The position numbers and the translations under genes are program-made. Below, piece after piece: positions 20,256 to 34,390 of a DNA stretch of 42,935 nucleotides. Under the pieces are notes generated by a model, which had not been told where the DNA came from, made no database searches, and worked only from the letters and a program-made list of their open reading frames with translations. The stretch is from Bacillota bacterium (lineage in GTDB: Bacteria > Bacillota > Dehalobacteriia > UBA4068): positions 1 to 42,935 of the forward strand of contig JAILCQ010000025.1 in assembly GCA_024679955.1 (NCBI GenBank), in the 5' to 3' direction. Numbering within the stretch: the first letter of the stretch is position 1; each line of letters opens with the position of its first letter.

Positions 20256-23027
20256 ATGACAGAAATATTGCAAATACGAAAAAAGACGTTAATCGTCAAT
20301 GGCATATCGAGAACGGTTTTGGCTTCGGATCATGATTCCTTGGCCGATGTGATTCGCCAACAGTTGGGATTATGGGGGACGAAAGTCGGCTGCCGCCTGA
20401 ATCAATGCGGCGTATGCTCGGTGATCCTCAATGACAAGCTGGTTCGTTCCTGTATGGTGAAAATGGCGAAAGTGGAAGACGGTTCCAGACTTTTGACCAT
20501 CGAGGGCGTCGGCACGCCGGAACATCTGCATCCGCTGCAAGCCGCCTGGATCAAATATGGCGGGGCGCAATGCGGTTTTTGCACGCCGGGCTTTATCGTC
20601 TCCGCCTATGCCCTGCTGCAGGAAAACCCCGCCCCCACCCGGGAAGAAGTGCGGGATTGGTTCCAAAAGAACCGCAACGCCTGTCGCTGCACCGGCTACA
20701 AAGTGCTGGTTGACGCGGTGATGGCTGCGGCCGCCGTGATGCGGGGAGAAAAACCGGAAAAGGATCTGTATTATACCATGGGCGAGGACGGCCGCATTTT
20801 CGGCACCGATTATCCCCGGCCCTCGGCGGTGGCCAAGGTGACGGGTACCTGTGAATACGGGGCGGATACCGGTCTGTTTTTGCCTCGGGAAACGCTGCGA
20901 TTGGCTTTGGTACAGGCCAAGGTCTCCCATGCCAATATCTTGCGCATCGATACCGCCGAAGCGGAAAAAATGCCGGGAGTGGCGGCCGTCATCACCCATA
21001 AAGACGTCAAAGGCAATAACCGCATCAACGGTTTCGTATTGTATTCCTGGAACAAGGGCGACGGCTTTGACCGGCCGATCTTATGCGACGAGAAAATATT
21101 CCAATATGGCGACGCTATCGCTATCGTTTGCGCCGATACCAAGGCCCATGCCGACGTGGCGGCGGCTGCGGTCAAAGTGGAAGTGGAGGAATTACCGGCT
21201 TATATGAACGCCAAGGAAGCGGTGGCCGCCGACGCGGTGGAGATCCACCCCGGCACCCCCAATCAATTTTTTGAGCAGACTCTGGCCAAAGGGGAGGACA
21301 GCAAAGCTTTGCTGGATAATTCCTATTTGGTCCTGGAACGGGAATACTACAGCCAGCGCCAGCCCCATCTGGTGATGGAGCCGGACGTGGGCTACGGCTA
21401 TTATGACGAAACCGGGCGCTTGACCATACACAGCAAAAGCGTGGGCGTCTACTGCCATGCGGATATGATCGCCGAAGGTTTGGGCCTCCAGCCGGAACAG
21501 GTGCGCATCATTCAGAACAATGCCGGCGGCACCTTCGGTTACAAGCTTTCCCCCACCTTGGAGGCGCTGATCGGCGTGGCGGTGATGCATACCGGCCGTC
21601 CCTGCTATTTGGAATTCAATATGCATCAGCAATTGACCTATACCGGCAAGCGCTCCCCCTTCTTCAGCAAGATCCGTTTGGGCTGTGACCGGGACGGCAA
21701 ACTGACGGCCATGGAAAACGAAGTGTTGGCCGATCACGGTGCGTATTCCGAATTCGGCGATTTATTGCTGGTAAAAAATATCGAATTTACCTGCGCCGGT
21801 TATCATATAGAAAGCATGCGGGGCAAAAACGCCATCACCTTTACCAATCATGCTTACGGCGCGGCCATGCGGGCCTACGGCTCTCCCCAGGCTTTCTTTG
21901 CCGGAGAAAGCATTGTGGACGAATTGGCCCGGGCCTACGGCATGGATCCTTTTGAGTTCCGCTATCAAAACGTCTACAAAGAAGATTCCACCACACCCAC
22001 GGGCTGCGCCCCGGACGTAGTGGTGATCCGCGGACTGTTGGATAAATTGCGTCCCGCCTATCAGCAGGCCCAGGCGGTAAAAGCCGTTTTCCCACCGGGA
22101 AAGATCAAGCGGGGCGTCGGCGTATCCCTGGGCATTTACAGCTGCGGCGACGATGGTTACGACAATTCCGAAGCCGCGGTGGAGCTGCAGCCGGACGGCA
22201 AGATTGCTGTGTACCTGACCTGGGAAGATCATGGCCAGGGCGGCGATATCGGCGCATTGGTCAGCGCCCATGAAGCCTTCCGCCAATTGGGCTGCCCCAA
22301 AGCGCCGGAAGATTTCATCATCGTCAACAACGATACCGGCCGCTGCCCCAACAGCGGCTATGCCGCCGGCAGCCGCAGCCAGGTGATGGTGGGCAACGCC
22401 ATTTGGGATGCGGCGGAAAATCTGATCCGCGCCATGCGCAAGGCGGACGGCTCCTTCCGCAGCTATGCGGAAATGCTGGCCGAGGATTTGCCGCTGTATT
22501 ATTTGGGCTCCTACAACACCTCGCCCTATGTTACCCCCACCGATGAAAAAGGGGCCCAGGGCAATCCCTTTGTGGCCTATATGTACGCCGCTTTTGTCTC
22601 CGAAGTGGAAGTGGATACGGAAACCGGCAAAACCAAAGTCAAAAAGATCACCGCCGCTTATGACGTGGGCAAGATCGCCAACCGTCTGGCGGTGGAAGGC
22701 CAGGCTTACGGCGGCCTGTCCCAAGGCATCGGCATGGCCTTGAGCGAGGATTTCGAGGACTTGCAGGCCCATACCACCTTGGTCAAAAGCGGCCTGCCCT
22801 ATATCGAAGACGTGCCGGACGACATCACCCTGATCTTCCAGGAAACCCCGCGGAAGCACAGCAAATTCGGCTGTTCCGGCGTGGGGGAGGCGGTGACCAC
22901 AGCGCCCCATGCTTCCATTATCAACGCCATCGACGACGCATGCGGCGCGCGGATCCGCCGCCTGCCGGCCTATCCGGAAAAGGTGCTGCAAGCCTTGAAA
23001 GAAAAAGAACTGGAAGAGAAAGAATAG
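20256..23027 (+). CDS. mop: Molybdenum-containing aldehyde oxidoreductase (Mop type)
   Basis: A 923-residue enzyme, co-linear with Desulfovibrio aldehyde oxidoreductase (~907 aa), of the xanthine oxidase family. The plant-type [2Fe-2S] domain has Cys46, 51, 54 and 66. The second [2Fe-2S] helical domain has Cys106, 109, 143 and 145 (QCGFC, NACRCTG). After the linker (KVTGTCEYGAD) come the molybdopterin-binding domains, with MRAYGSPQ and the closing GCSGVGEAVTT that holds the catalytic Glu. No FAD domain is present, so electrons must leave through the Fe-S clusters to a partner. It oxidises aldehydes to carboxylates in the Desulfovibrio enzyme; the substrate here is inferred. SD GAAGGAGCG precedes the ATG. 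The next gene is probably the electron-transfer partner. Confidence 0.93.
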   Translation: MTEILQIRKKTLIVNGISRTVLASDHDSLADVIRQQLGLWGTKVGCRLNQCGVCSVILNDKLVRSCMVKMAKVEDGSRLLTIEGVGTPEHLHPLQAAWIKYGGAQCGFCTPGFIVSAYALLQENPAPTREEVRDWFQKNRNACRCTGYKVLVDAVMAAAAVMRGEKPEKDLYYTMGEDGRIFGTDYPRPSAVAKVTGTCEYGADTGLFLPRETLRLALVQAKVSHANILRIDTAEAEKMPGVAAVITHKDVKGNNRINGFVLYSWNKGDGFDRPILCDEKIFQYGDAIAIVCADTKAHADVAAAAVKVEVEELPAYMNAKEAVAADAVEIHPGTPNQFFEQTLAKGEDSKALLDNSYLVLEREYYSQRQPHLVMEPDVGYGYYDETGRLTIHSKSVGVYCHADMIAEGLGLQPEQVRIIQNNAGGTFGYKLSPTLEALIGVAVMHTGRPCYLEFNMHQQLTYTGKRSPFFSKIRLGCDRDGKLTAMENEVLADHGAYSEFGDLLLVKNIEFTCAGYHIESMRGKNAITFTNHAYGAAMRAYGSPQAFFAGESIVDELARAYGMDPFEFRYQNVYKEDSTTPTGCAPDVVVIRGLLDKLRPAYQQAQAVKAVFPPGKIKRGVGVSLGIYSCGDDGYDNSEAAVELQPDGKIAVYLTWEDHGQGGDIGALVSAHEAFRQLGCPKAPEDFIIVNNDTGRCPNSGYAAGSRSQVMVGNAIWDAAENLIRAMRKADGSFRSYAEMLAEDLPLYYLGSYNTSPYVTPTDEKGAQGNPFVAYMYAAFVSEVEVDTETGKTKVKKITAAYDVGKIANRLAVEGQAYGGLSQGIGMALSEDFEDLQAHTTLVKSGLPYIEDVPDDITLIFQETPRKHSKFGCSGVGEAVTTAPHASIINAIDDACGARIRRLPAYPEKVLQALKEKELEEKE

Positions 23028-23046
23028 CGGTCTGAACAAAGGGAAC

Positions 23047-23076
23047 CCCGGGGCGTGTTTTGCGCCCCGGGCTTTT
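23047..23076 (+). terminator. Hairpin between mop and partner gene
   Basis: CCCGGGGCG (23047-23055), 7-nt loop, CGCCCCGGG (23063-23071), then CTTTTCG. A second small stem, GCGGC/GCCGC (23078-23093), follows. With only four T it may terminate partly, leaving the next gene at lower expression. Confidence 0.6.
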
Positions 23077-23115
23077 CGCGGCATTTGCGCCGCAGCGAAA
23101 CGACAGGAGAACGGA

Positions 23116-25428
23116 ATGAAACCACGGGAAATATTGAGCCGGGAACGGGATTGTATCGAGCAGCATGCCCCAGCCTGCCAGGCCGGTTGTCCTTTGCATA
23201 TCGATTGCCGGGCCGTAAACGCTTTGCTGCGGCAGGGGGAAACGGCGGCGGCCTGGCAGACCTTTGCCAAGGATGCGCTTTTGCCGCGGCTTTTGGCTTC
23301 GGCCTGTTCCGGGCCTTGCGGCGATTTTTGCCGGGAAAAGACAGGGCGGCCGCCGGTATCCATGCCGGCGATAGAAAGATGGCTGTTGCGACAGGTGGCC
23401 GCCGGTCAACCCCTGACGGTGCAGCCCTATATGCGTTTGTCGCAAAAAGCGGCGGTGATCGGCGGCGGCGCGGCCGGTTTGGCGGCGGCGGTGTTCCTCT
23501 ATGAAAAAGGCTTTTCCGTCACCGTGATCGATCAGGATACAGCCCTGGGCGGTTCCCTGCGCCGCGATCCGCGGATAGACGCCGCCCTGCTCCGGGAAGA
23601 AACGGATTTTTTCGCGGCCCATTGCCATTTGCGCCTGGGCTGCCGGGTGGGGCGGGATATGGCCTTAACCGATCTGGAACGGGAATTCGATGCGGTGCTG
23701 CTGGCCGTAGGCCAAAACCAGGTCCGGGAGGTTTGCGGCTGGGATCTGTCTTATGATCCGGAGACCCTGCAGGCCAATGCCTATCCCTGGTTGTTCTGCC
23801 TGTCCCGGCGGGGAGATTGGCCGGCGGATTCCCCCTGGCAGAGCTTGGCCGGCCGCCTGGCCCGGGGCAAACAGGGCGGCATATCCGCCGACCGGTTTCT
23901 CAAAAAGGTTTCTTTGACCGCCTCCCGCTGGCGGGCGGGGAGTTATGACAGCGAGTTACCTTTTACGCCGCCGGCGGAGGCAACGGAACAGCCCTTTGCG
24001 CCGGGGACGCTTTCTCCTCAGGAAGAGGCGGCCCGTTGTTTGGATTGCCATTGCCGGGAATGTACGCTGCATTGCCACGTTTTGCGCAAATACGGCAAAG
24101 CGCCCCGGCAGTATATCCGGGAGGTGGCCAACAATCTCATCATCACCCGGGGCCGGCGCAATGCCAACGCCATTATCAATTCCTGCACCTTATGCGGCCT
24201 GTGCGGCCAGGTTTGCGTCAACGGCCTGGACATGGGAGAGATTTTCCTGGCCGCCCGGGAAAATATGGTGGAAAAAGATGCGATGCCGCCGCGGGCCCAT
24301 GATTTCCCCCTGCGGGATATGCAGTTTTCCCTCAGCGAGCAATTCGATATGTGGCGGGAAGACCCTGCGGGCGGCTGCGGCTATCTGTTTTTCCCCGGCT
24401 GCCAGCTGGCGGCGGGCGCGCCCCAATATATCGCTCCCTTGTACCGGCATTTGCGCAAGATCGCCCCGGCCGGCGTAGGCTTGGCTTTGAGCTGCTGCGG
24501 CGCGCCGGCCTATTGGGCGGGGCAGCGGCAGACCGCGGAAGAAGTCCGGGCAAACATAGAAGCCCAATGGCGGCGTTTGGGCAGCCCGGTGATGATCACC
24601 GGCTGTACTACCTGCTATCAGGAGTTAGCGACCTTTCTGCCTGAGGAAAAGCTGCTCCCGCTTTGGCAGGCTTTGGATCGATGGGGCTTGCCGCCGCAGG
24701 CGGCTTCGCTGCAGGGAAAAAGCTTTTCCCTGCACGATCCCTGCACCGCCCGGCATATGACCGCCTGCCAGGACAGCGTGCGCCGCATCGCCGCCGCTTT
24801 ATCTGGTCAGGTCCGGGAAATGGCTCACAATCGGGATATGGCTCTGTGCTGCGGTTACGGCGGCCTAGCCATATTCGGCAACCCCCAATTGACCGGGGAA
24901 TTGCAAGTCCAGCGCCTGCAGGAAGCCCAGGGGGATATGCTGACCTATTGCTGGATGTGCCGGGATTATCTGGCGCAGGCGTCCGCCAAATACGGCATGG
25001 AAATTCAGGTTTATCATATGCTGGATCTGCTGTTCGGCGGGGGCCAGGCCGCGCCGGTTTTGGATATCAGCGAAAAAAGAGCCGCCCGCAGGCGGCTGAA
25101 GCAACAACTTTTGCAGGAGTTCTGGCAGGAAGGGGAGAACGCCCCGGAAGGAGAGGATTGGCGGCGCTACCGCCTGCAGCCCGGCGTGGCCGAAAAAATG
25201 GCGGAACGGCTGATTTTGCTGGAGGATGTGGCGGCGGTGATCGACGCGGCGGAAAGCAGCGGCCGGAAATTGCTGCGGCCGGGCGACGGCCATTATTTCG
25301 CCCATTTGCGCCGGGGCTTGGTCACCTATTGGGTGGAATACGGCAAAGAGGAAGACGGCTATACCGTGTATACCGCCTATTGCCATCGCCTGCAGATTTT
25401 GCCGGAGACGCCTGCCGCGAAAAAATAA
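23116..25428 (+). CDS. Flavin/Fe-S oxidoreductase with heterodisulfide-reductase-like CCG domains
   Basis: A 770-residue cytosolic multidomain protein. The N-terminal GltD-like Cys region (Cys13, 21, 25, 31, then 64, 68, 72) precedes an FAD Rossmann fold with IGGGAAGLAAA (115-125). Around 305-370 lie two ferredoxin-like clusters (CLDCHCRECTLHC; CTLCGLCGQVC). Two HdrB-like CCG modules follow: FFPGCQLA...LSCCGAP and HDPCTAR...ALCCGYGG. The end (~640-770) is an extra domain with GHYFAHLRRGLVTYWVEY. This matches my memory of the 'pyridine nucleotide-disulfide oxidoreductase/dicluster-binding' family that accompanies Mop-type or selenoenzyme genes. Likely role: accept electrons from the aldehyde oxidoreductase and pass them to NAD(P) or a carrier (inference). 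The GltD-type second nucleotide site is not complete to my eye. Confidence 0.85.
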   Translation: MKPREILSRERDCIEQHAPACQAGCPLHIDCRAVNALLRQGETAAAWQTFAKDALLPRLLASACSGPCGDFCREKTGRPPVSMPAIERWLLRQVAAGQPLTVQPYMRLSQKAAVIGGGAAGLAAAVFLYEKGFSVTVIDQDTALGGSLRRDPRIDAALLREETDFFAAHCHLRLGCRVGRDMALTDLEREFDAVLLAVGQNQVREVCGWDLSYDPETLQANAYPWLFCLSRRGDWPADSPWQSLAGRLARGKQGGISADRFLKKVSLTASRWRAGSYDSELPFTPPAEATEQPFAPGTLSPQEEAARCLDCHCRECTLHCHVLRKYGKAPRQYIREVANNLIITRGRRNANAIINSCTLCGLCGQVCVNGLDMGEIFLAARENMVEKDAMPPRAHDFPLRDMQFSLSEQFDMWREDPAGGCGYLFFPGCQLAAGAPQYIAPLYRHLRKIAPAGVGLALSCCGAPAYWAGQRQTAEEVRANIEAQWRRLGSPVMITGCTTCYQELATFLPEEKLLPLWQALDRWGLPPQAASLQGKSFSLHDPCTARHMTACQDSVRRIAAALSGQVREMAHNRDMALCCGYGGLAIFGNPQLTGELQVQRLQEAQGDMLTYCWMCRDYLAQASAKYGMEIQVYHMLDLLFGGGQAAPVLDISEKRAARRRLKQQLLQEFWQEGENAPEGEDWRRYRLQPGVAEKMAERLILLEDVAAVIDAAESSGRKLLRPGDGHYFAHLRRGLVTYWVEYGKEEDGYTVYTAYCHRLQILPETPAAKK

Positions 25429-32904: not shown

Positions 32905-32940
32905 TTGACAAATCGGTGGCAATGTATTAGACTAGGTCTA
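32905..32940 (+). promoter_or_regulatory. Promoter with operator-like palindrome for DUF5714-lipoyl genes
   Basis: TTGACA (32905-32910), 17-nt spacer, TAGACT (32928-32933). TAGAC-TAG-GTCTA (32928-32940) is an inverted repeat covering the -10, a good place for a repressor such as the nearby PadR protein (inference). Confidence 0.65.
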
Positions 32941-32974
32941 TCGGAGTTTGATTTGAGAAAAGAGGCAAATGGCT

Positions 32975-33574
32975 ATGTTGGATCCTTCCGTATATGAACC
33001 CTATTTCCCGCAAACGAAACAAATCTGTCTGGCGTCTTTTGCCGCTCCTCAGGAGGAAGGCCTGGCGGCCTTGTTGCAACGGCTGCTCTCCCAGGAAGGG
33101 ATGCCTACCCATTGCCCGGTGCATCACTATATCGTACCGGCGGCCCTGCTTACCGTTTGCCGCAAAAGGCAAGGGGAAAGCGTGGATTTGTTGGAAGCGG
33201 AATTGACCGAGGCCATGACCCGGGCCCGCAATGTGCCCGGCGGCTTTTGCGGTTTTTACGGCACTTGCGGCGCAGCCGTGGGTTTGGGCATTTTCTGGTC
33301 CATCATCACCGGTACCACGCCTTTGTCCGCCCAAACCTGGAGCTTCGGCAACCGGGCCAGCGGCGAAGCTTTGCTGAAGCTGGCGGAATACGGCGGCCCC
33401 CGTTGCTGCAAACGGGTGTCCTGGTTGACGGTCAGCGGGGCCATAGACCGCATCAATGAGGTTTTCGATTTGCATTTGCCGGCTTTGGACGAGATGACCT
33501 GCAGCTTTTATAAAAGCAATGGGGAATGCTTAAAGGATCATTGCCCGTATTATCCAAAGGAGACGGTCAAATGA
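32975..33574 (+). CDS. DUF5714 domain protein
   Basis: About 199 residues, DUF5714 family, function unknown. The conserved core is VPGGFCGFYGTCGAAVGLGIFWSIITGTTPLS, then GPRCCKRVSWLT. Cys are plentiful, also at both ends (LTVCRKRQ, GECLKDHCPYYP), so a metal or Fe-S cluster is likely. The start is either ATG 32969 or 32975; the latter gives better spacing from AGAGG. The stop overlaps the next gene (ATGA, 33571-33574), so it is coupled to the lipoyl-domain protein. Confidence 0.8.
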   Translation: MLDPSVYEPYFPQTKQICLASFAAPQEEGLAALLQRLLSQEGMPTHCPVHHYIVPAALLTVCRKRQGESVDLLEAELTEAMTRARNVPGGFCGFYGTCGAAVGLGIFWSIITGTTPLSAQTWSFGNRASGEALLKLAEYGGPRCCKRVSWLTVSGAIDRINEVFDLHLPALDEMTCSFYKSNGECLKDHCPYYPKETVK

Positions 33575-33861
33575 CGAAGACGCCCATAACGGTACCGGTT
33601 TCCATGCGGCCGGTGAAAAACGAAGACAGCCCCTGCAAAAACGGGCCGGTATATTTTCAGTACAAAACCGCGGTTTTGCTGTGGCTGAAAAGCGAAGGGG
33701 AAGCCGTTGTCCAGGACGAACCGGTTTGCCAGGGGGAAGTGGACAAAAAGATCGTGGAATTCTGCGCCCCTGTCAGCGGCATACTCAGCGAGATCTGTCT
33801 GGCGGATGGGGAAGAATGCAAGGCCGGCGATATCCTGGGATATGTTACCGCCGGCGCATAA
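33571..33861 (+). CDS. Stand-alone lipoyl/biotinyl-attachment domain protein
   Basis: A 96-residue protein with the lipoyl-domain beta barrel: VYFQYKTAVLLWLKSEGEAVVQDEPVCQGEVDKKIVEFCAPVSGILSEICLADGEECKAGDILGYV. The turn EVDK (56-59) with Lys59 corresponds to the ETDKA lipoylation site; CAPVSG replaces the usual SPVAG. Four Cys (22, 53, 65, 76, with a fifth at 83) are unusual for such a domain. No E2, GcvT or lipoate ligase is nearby. It follows the DUF5714 gene by overlap, so the two probably act together, with this protein as a swinging-arm carrier (inference). Confidence 0.78.
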   Translation: MTKTPITVPVSMRPVKNEDSPCKNGPVYFQYKTAVLLWLKSEGEAVVQDEPVCQGEVDKKIVEFCAPVSGILSEICLADGEECKAGDILGYVTAGA

Positions 33862-33901
33862 TGCTTTCGTCTATAACATAATATATGTGATTACTGACCA
33901 A

Positions 33902-33938
33902 GTAAAAAAGCGGACGCGGTATGCGTTCGCTTTTTTAC
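33902..33938. terminator. Bidirectional terminator between lipoyl and padR genes
   Basis: GTAAAAAAGCGGACGC (33902-33917), 5-nt loop, GCGTTCGCTTTTTTAC (33923-33938), with one G-T pair. T-rich in both directions. It overlaps the PadR stop codon. Confidence 0.85.
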
Positions 33939-34327
33939 CGTCCCGTTTCCTTTGGCGGCTGGGCCAAAGTATCGTCCATGGTTTGGATCAAAGCGCTCAA
34001 GTCGTCCCGATAGGCGATGATGGATTGCCGCCACTTTTTGAAGCATTCCCGTCCTTGCGGTGTGATCCAATACACCCGGCGGGAGGAGCTGTTTTGCCAA
34101 AGCTCCAAACGGGAGGCCAGCAAATCGTTGTTTTCCATTTTTTTCAGATAGCGGTACAAACCGGTAGGATCCGGCGTTTCGCCGTGAAACATGGGGGATT
34201 GCGCCACCCTTTGGATCAAAACGAAACCGTGCAGATTCTCATGATACAATTCGTTTAAAATCGCTACCTGCAGGAAACGGTCGAGGTTTTTGCCTGAGCA
34301 GGCGCAGTTTTCTTCCATCTGGGCCAT
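33935..34327 (-). CDS. PadR-family transcriptional regulator with CxC N-terminus
   Basis: A 130-residue PadR regulator. The winged helix covers NLDRFLQVAILNELYHENLHGFVLIQRVAQSPMFHG and DPTGLYRYLKKMENNDLL; the wing is SSRRVYWITPQGRECF, then a dimer helix. The N-terminus MAQMEENCACSGKN holds Cys8 and Cys10, which could sense redox or metal. The start at 34327 has GGAGGG upstream. It is convergent with the DUF5714-lipoyl genes and shares their terminator, and its own promoter contains a palindrome. It probably controls this small unit and itself (inference). Confidence 0.85.
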   Translation of the reverse strand: MAQMEENCACSGKNLDRFLQVAILNELYHENLHGFVLIQRVAQSPMFHGETPDPTGLYRYLKKMENNDLLASRLELWQNSSSRRVYWITPQGRECFKKWRQSIIAYRDDLSALIQTMDDTLAQPPKETGR

Positions 34328-34360
34328 GATATTCCCTCCATATATTCGAAATCCTACCGC

Positions 34361-34390
34361 TATGATATCATATAGGAAAATGGCTGTCAA
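34361..34390 (-). promoter_or_regulatory. padR promoter with palindromic site
   Basis: Minus strand TTGACA (34390-34385), 17-nt spacer, TATCAT (34367-34362). TATGATATCATA (34361-34372) is a perfect 12-bp palindrome covering the -10. Confidence 0.65.

Follow-up and report, generated by a model that had tools for sequence, protein, structure and literature searches.

A genus-specific operon pairing a DUF5714 protein with a free-standing lipoyl domain: a candidate dithiol redox cassette in Peptococcaceae

Very few kinds of lipoylated protein exist, and a free-standing lipoyl domain encoded directly beside a DUF5714 protein raises the question of what such a carrier would be used for. The gene pair lies in a 42,935-nucleotide stretch of DNA (hereafter the window) from the genome (1.92 Mb in 44 contigs, 96% complete) of an anaerobic bacterium of the Peptococcaceae. 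At 20256-25428 of the window, inspection by eye picked out a large gene whose N-terminal part is of the 2Fe-2S kind and resembles that of a molybdenum hydroxylase; a GltD-like oxidoreductase gene comes next. The cassette itself is positioned between gyrA and tilS and consists of the DUF5714 gene, the lipoyl open reading frame (ORF) and a convergent PadR gene. Its features are as follows, with L002 denoting the corresponding locus of the congener described below.

32905..32940, + strand: promoter of the DUF5714-lipoyl operon, TTGACA-17-TAGACT (promoter matches; conserved in L002)
32928-32940: dyad TAGAC-TAG-GTCTA (TAGACTnnGTCTA) over the -10 of the operon promoter (conserved in L002)
32969..33574, + strand: DUF5714 protein, 201 aa (PF18978, 184 bits)
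33571..33861, + strand: free-standing E2-type lipoyl domain, 96 aa, with Lys59 in EVDK (PF00364, 40.4 bits)
33904..33936, no strand assigned: bidirectional terminator AAAAAAGCGGACGC-GGTAT-GCGTTCGCTTTTTT, common to the operon and padR (from sequence; conserved in L002)
33935..34327, - strand: PadR-family regulator, 130 aa, with an N-terminal CxC (ENCACSGKNLDRF) (PF03551, 36.3 bits)
34361-34372: palindrome TATGATATCATA in the padR promoter (only partly conserved in the congener)
34361..34390, - strand: padR promoter TTGACA-17-TATCAT, extended TG (promoter matches)

The original prediction, which described these genes as a compact unit, was confirmed for the DUF5714 gene, the ATGA overlap, the lipoyl ORF with Lys59, the facing PadR gene and the common terminator, while its interpretation found partial support. 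The lipoyl ORF begins within the DUF5714 stop codon, producing an ATGA overlap at 33571-33574. The genus is sampled by two genomes, the window's own and that of one congener (an uncultured Peptococcaceae MAG), and in the congener all three genes stand at the corresponding position in unchanged order, with identities of 85% for DUF5714, 81% for the lipoyl protein and 79% for PadR. The ATGA overlap is present there as well (L002 5911-5914), and Lys59 is kept in both species. Nonsynonymous divergence (NG86 dN) was 0.10 for DUF5714, 0.10 for the lipoyl gene and 0.13 for padR, with dS of at least 1.1 for each, and tilS gave similar values. Together, conservation and the dN/dS figures show that all three are real genes under purifying selection, with synonymous sites near saturation, and the unit stands as a conserved, selected cassette within the genus.

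The lipoyl protein is a member of the lipoyl domain family (PF00364, 40.4 bits against a cut-off of 22.1), with the lipoyl fold and a lysine in the DK turn. Profile matches identified E2 lipoyl domains as its best named relatives, and Lys59 aligned with the lipoyl-bearing lysine in 15 E2-type domains. The AlphaFold model (pLDDT 80) matched solved lipoyl and biotinyl domains, with an insertion of ~15 residues near the N-terminus modeled at low confidence. Three extra cysteines (Cys53, Cys76 and Cys83), of a kind absent from 14 of the 15 E2 comparators, are conserved and would fit a thiol role. As a 96-aa single domain without a fused catalytic acyltransferase, the protein is not a 2-oxoacid dehydrogenase E2, and it scored 14.4 bits against the GCV_H cut-off of 22.2, the genuine GcvH being encoded on contig C30. 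Assignment of the gene as GcvH, as a biotin carrier or as an E2 with a catalytic partner was unsupported by profiles and genome contents.

A search of the genome for PF00364 domains returned three, namely an AccB-like biotin carrier, a second biotin carrier that adjoins a decarboxylase-type membrane subunit, and the lipoyl protein itself; no E2 lipoyl protein was found in this search. The genome encodes a lipoate-protein ligase, LplA (TIGR00545, 307 bits against 280), and contig C30 carries, alongside GcvH, other glycine cleavage system (GCS) genes and E3 (TIGR01350, 457.6 bits). Since LplA, GcvH, GCS and E3 are present and E2 is absent, the lipoyl domain is an orphan for which the genome provides machinery for charging and re-reduction, and with LplA and E3 at hand its lipoylation would be plausible and feasible. 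As a separate observation, L132:5547-6930 encodes two closely similar 219-aa proteins in tandem, a few kb upstream of the lplA gene.

The other protein of the operon belongs clearly to DUF5714, scoring 184 bits for PF18978 (cut-off 26.2) over profile positions 9-173 of 173. It falls into a short subfamily (clade support 99/98) in which HCPxHH replaces HGPEHH and the N-terminal zinc ribbon is absent. Across 43 homologues, R85, K148 and seven cysteines (C94, C100, C146, C147, C178, C187 and C192) were invariant, and H48 and H53 were nearly so. The AlphaFold model was all-alpha (pLDDT 91.6); a fold search of the PDB with this model gave no match at E <= 0.001, and assigning a function through similarity to solved structures was therefore dropped. 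No papers on DUF5714 were found in the open literature searched. The central Cys/Gly region showed weak but repeated profile similarity to C_GCAxxG_C_C (PF09719, "putative redox-active protein"), with 26 of the 43 homologues matching at E <= 1 (best 5e-5), although the window's protein, at 12.4 bits, remained below the gathering cut-off of 27. Judged from these profiles, the two families are likely distant kin. The window's protein also matched the central part (positions 106-269 of 468) of the double selenoprotein MbdU (NF045648), but at 78.3 bits it was well under the MbdU cut-off of 600. Unlike MbdU, it is a short single domain without selenocysteine, as its gene has no in-frame TGA ahead of the stop. 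A DUF5714 copy at G098:C1:473178-473728 contains TGA and TAA stops, is split between frames and may be a pseudogene or a selenoprotein. DUF5714 is probably a metal- or disulfide-containing protein.

Among the genomes sampled, DUF5714 was present in 7 of the 20 from the family, 12 of the 37 from the class and 50 of the 398 from the phylum. Its neighborhood was surveyed within genomes of this phylum by running the lipoyl HMM on all ORFs of at least 40 aa in the fetched DUF5714 loci, ~1.5 kb to either side, and no lipoyl ORF was found at any surveyed locus except those of the window and the congener. A profile of the lipoyl subfamily scored 211 and 209 bits in the two genomes of the genus and at most 39 bits for the next best match among the 398 genomes. 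These weaker matches mostly fell in long open frames, of a size expected for an E2 or a carboxylase, and nothing closely related to the lipoyl protein turned up in the phylum genomes outside the genus. As far as the sample shows, both the DUF5714-lipoyl pairing and the lipoyl subfamily are confined to the genus. A general DUF5714-lipoyl-PadR system, for which the original prediction proposed a co-occurrence search, was rejected by this survey, as DUF5714 in other genera has no adjacent lipoyl gene and the subfamily is absent from the other sampled genomes. The rarity of the pairing, which the prediction had itself named as evidence against it, thus speaks against a general system and leaves a genus-specific one standing. 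Sister genera do not share the region downstream of gyrA, which is very variable in the family; this lack of synteny marks the cassette as a local gain.

Thioredoxin (Trx) or Trx-TrxR fusion genes lay within 1.5 kb of DUF5714 in 10 of 42 other loci, compared with 0 of 47 PadR and gyrA control loci and 5 of 30 BPL/LplA control loci, the latter value arising because LplA often adjoins E3. On the tree, Trx-associated DUF5714 is found on two or more distinct branches. The Trx-TrxR fusion gene (~424 aa) adjoins DUF5714 at L106, L109, L110, L117, L118 and L120-L122, and in some of these genomes the locus also carries a second gene of the radical SAM type or a small DUF302-like one. TrsS/Tes-like radical SAM genes were adjacent to or fused with DUF5714 in four loci; at L040:1492-3510 and L043:1-2025, DUF5714 forms the C-terminal part of a fusion with a Tes/TrsS-like radical SAM protein. 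One cluster in another genome of the phylum (L131:250-6256) combines an E3 lipoamide dehydrogenase (477 bits, cut-off 409), two TrsS-type radical SAM genes (TrsS at 534 bits, cut-off 490), a DVU_1553-family ligase and DUF5714. The closest DUF5714 relative outside the genus (L039, 49% identity) has no lipoyl gene and is convergent to a glycine-reductase-type cluster containing Trx and TrxR. The Trx association is drawn from few, related lineages (four families), with most DUF5714 loci having no dithiol partner, and the association with Trx, radical SAM and E3 neighbors should therefore be read as suggestive.

On this evidence, we tentatively favor, at somewhat less than even confidence, a genus-specific two-gene redox operon in which the lipoyl protein would act as a dedicated dithiol carrier from E3 to DUF5714. 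We infer that LplA would lipoylate the free E2-type lipoyl protein on Lys59 and that the glycine-cleavage E3 (dihydrolipoyl dehydrogenase) would reduce the lipoyl arm, such that electrons would pass from NADH through E3 and lipoyl-Lys59 to DUF5714 and the swinging-arm dithiol would keep the Cys-rich DUF5714 reduced. The lipoyl protein would in this way replace the Trx/TrxR found alongside DUF5714 in some other Firmicutes, and the operon would be expressed from a promoter of its own that bears an operator-like dyad, under regulation by the convergent PadR. The conserved and selected trio, the LplA, GcvH and E3 genes, the Trx neighbors, the E3 cluster at L131, the seven cysteines, the PF09719 similarity, the extra cysteines of the lipoyl protein and the AhpD and Ohr/OsmC precedents count in favor of such a redox operon, whereas the occurrence of the pair in two genomes only, the missing lipoyl partner at L039, the few lineages with Trx, the BPL/LplA control and the lack of a solved DUF5714 relative count against it. 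That a free E2-type lipoyl protein, an orphan domain recruited where the genome lacks an E2, is dedicated to serving DUF5714 in a lipoyl-for-thioredoxin swap, amounting to a new lipoate-dependent system, is a possibility we regard as rather doubtful.

The original prediction instead had the lipoyl protein shuttling an intermediate to DUF5714, an idea that gained no direct support, as the neighbors of DUF5714 elsewhere point to dithiol redox partners. In its wider form, the lipoyl protein would carry a covalent intermediate (an acyl, aminomethyl or sulfur group) either to DUF5714 or away from it, as in the GCS, the E2 complexes and sHdr-LbpA, which we consider unlikely. The five classic lipoyl complexes all operate by substrate channeling, as has been proposed for LbpA too (PMC6067878); LbpA has extra conserved cysteines as the window's lipoyl protein does, and the genome contains GCS genes. 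However, no decarboxylase, E1-like, transferase or Hdr gene was found in the cassette or its conserved neighborhood, and DUF5714 has no recognized catalytic domain and is accompanied elsewhere by redox or radical SAM genes. It also seems improbable that the domain is in practice no lipoyl carrier, serving as an unmodified adaptor or being biotinylated: its model matched both biotinyl carriers and lipoyl domains in the fold search and the genome encodes a BirA-type ligase, but both species read EVDK rather than the MKM of biotin carriers, the best profile matches are E2 lipoyl domains, and LplA is present. About as improbable is that the two genes are accidental neighbors with unrelated functions, left by a small gain between gyrA and tilS, for although the pairing is absent outside the genus and the region after gyrA is so variable, the ATGA overlap in both species, the operon's own promoter and the strong purifying selection on both genes stand against it.

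Regulation of the proposed redox operon was considered from its promoters and from PadR itself. The operon and padR promoters were the two best of four matches in total, with 1.9 expected in shuffles. The congener's operon promoter also reads TTGACA-17-TAGACT, and its dyad (TAGACT-A-AGTCTA) is more perfect than that of the window. Dyads of the 5-3-5 type occur at ~1.7 per kb across the window, making the dyad alone weak evidence; its position over the -10 and its conservation carry the weight of a putative operator. As a regulon site the operator was not borne out within the window, where a scan returned a single mismatch-free match. The palindrome TATGATATCATA over the padR -10 reads CATGATATTATG in the congener and is weak because it is only partly kept; it may be nothing other than a -10 box. 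Of the two promoters originally described, each with a palindrome, both promoters and the conserved operon dyad thus held up, while the padR palindrome did so poorly. The terminator stem between the convergent genes is kept in the congener with a G-U to A-U change.

PadR matched the winged-helix profile PF03551 at 36.3 bits (cut-off 27), and its CxC (C-A-C near the N-terminus) is kept in the congener. As the CxC is also conserved in the closest PadR relatives (L135-L142), it marks a PadR subgroup and is nothing special to the cassette. These relatives mostly adjoin BioB/PylB-like genes, not DUF5714 or lipoyl genes, and in five genomes (L135-L139) the CxC PadR lies directly beside BioB/PylB-like radical SAM genes scoring well under the cut-offs of BioB, PylB, HydE and LipS1. 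A link to lipoate synthesis through LipS1 was rejected, the neighbor scoring 19.5 bits against 230. Judging by position alone, the convergent CxC PadR is the likeliest candidate for local regulator of the cassette and would act via the dyad, and redox or metal sensing by its CxC, through which the original prediction had PadR gate expression, is a reasonable, if putative, proposal.

If true, the redox operon would for the first time open DUF5714, which is Cys-rich and linked to radical SAM (TrsS/Tes-like) clusters, to biochemical study, and the DUF5714-lipoyl pair is small enough for direct expression and assay. To our knowledge, every new stand-alone lipoyl carrier (LbpA, GcvH-L) has revealed an unexpected use of lipoate. 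Among known systems, AhpD is reduced by lipoylated E2 and Lpd, and Ohr/OsmC by lipoyl systems (PMC8945050). In AhpD/AhpC (Mycobacterium) and Ohr/OsmC, E3 and a lipoylated protein feed electrons to a Cys-based protein, as is proposed here; there, however, the lipoyl domain is part of a metabolic E2, whereas here it is free and shares an operon with its presumed client DUF5714. LbpA of sHdr sulfur oxidation is likewise a single-domain lipoate-binding protein outside the classical complexes with extra conserved cysteines (PMC6067878), but it is GcvH-like and linked to hdr-like genes and its own LplA, whereas the window's carrier is E2-like and no hdr-like or lplA gene was found in the cassette or its near flanks. 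The GcvH-L/LplA2/SirTM/macrodomain operon similarly ties a dedicated extra lipoyl carrier to a redox response (PMC4518038), the likeness being the dedicated carrier; the window's cassette, in contrast, has no sirtuin, macrodomain or LplA2, and its carrier is E2-type. Overall, the cassette is a variant on the theme of stand-alone lipoyl carriers that is restricted to one genus and brings in a new partner family.
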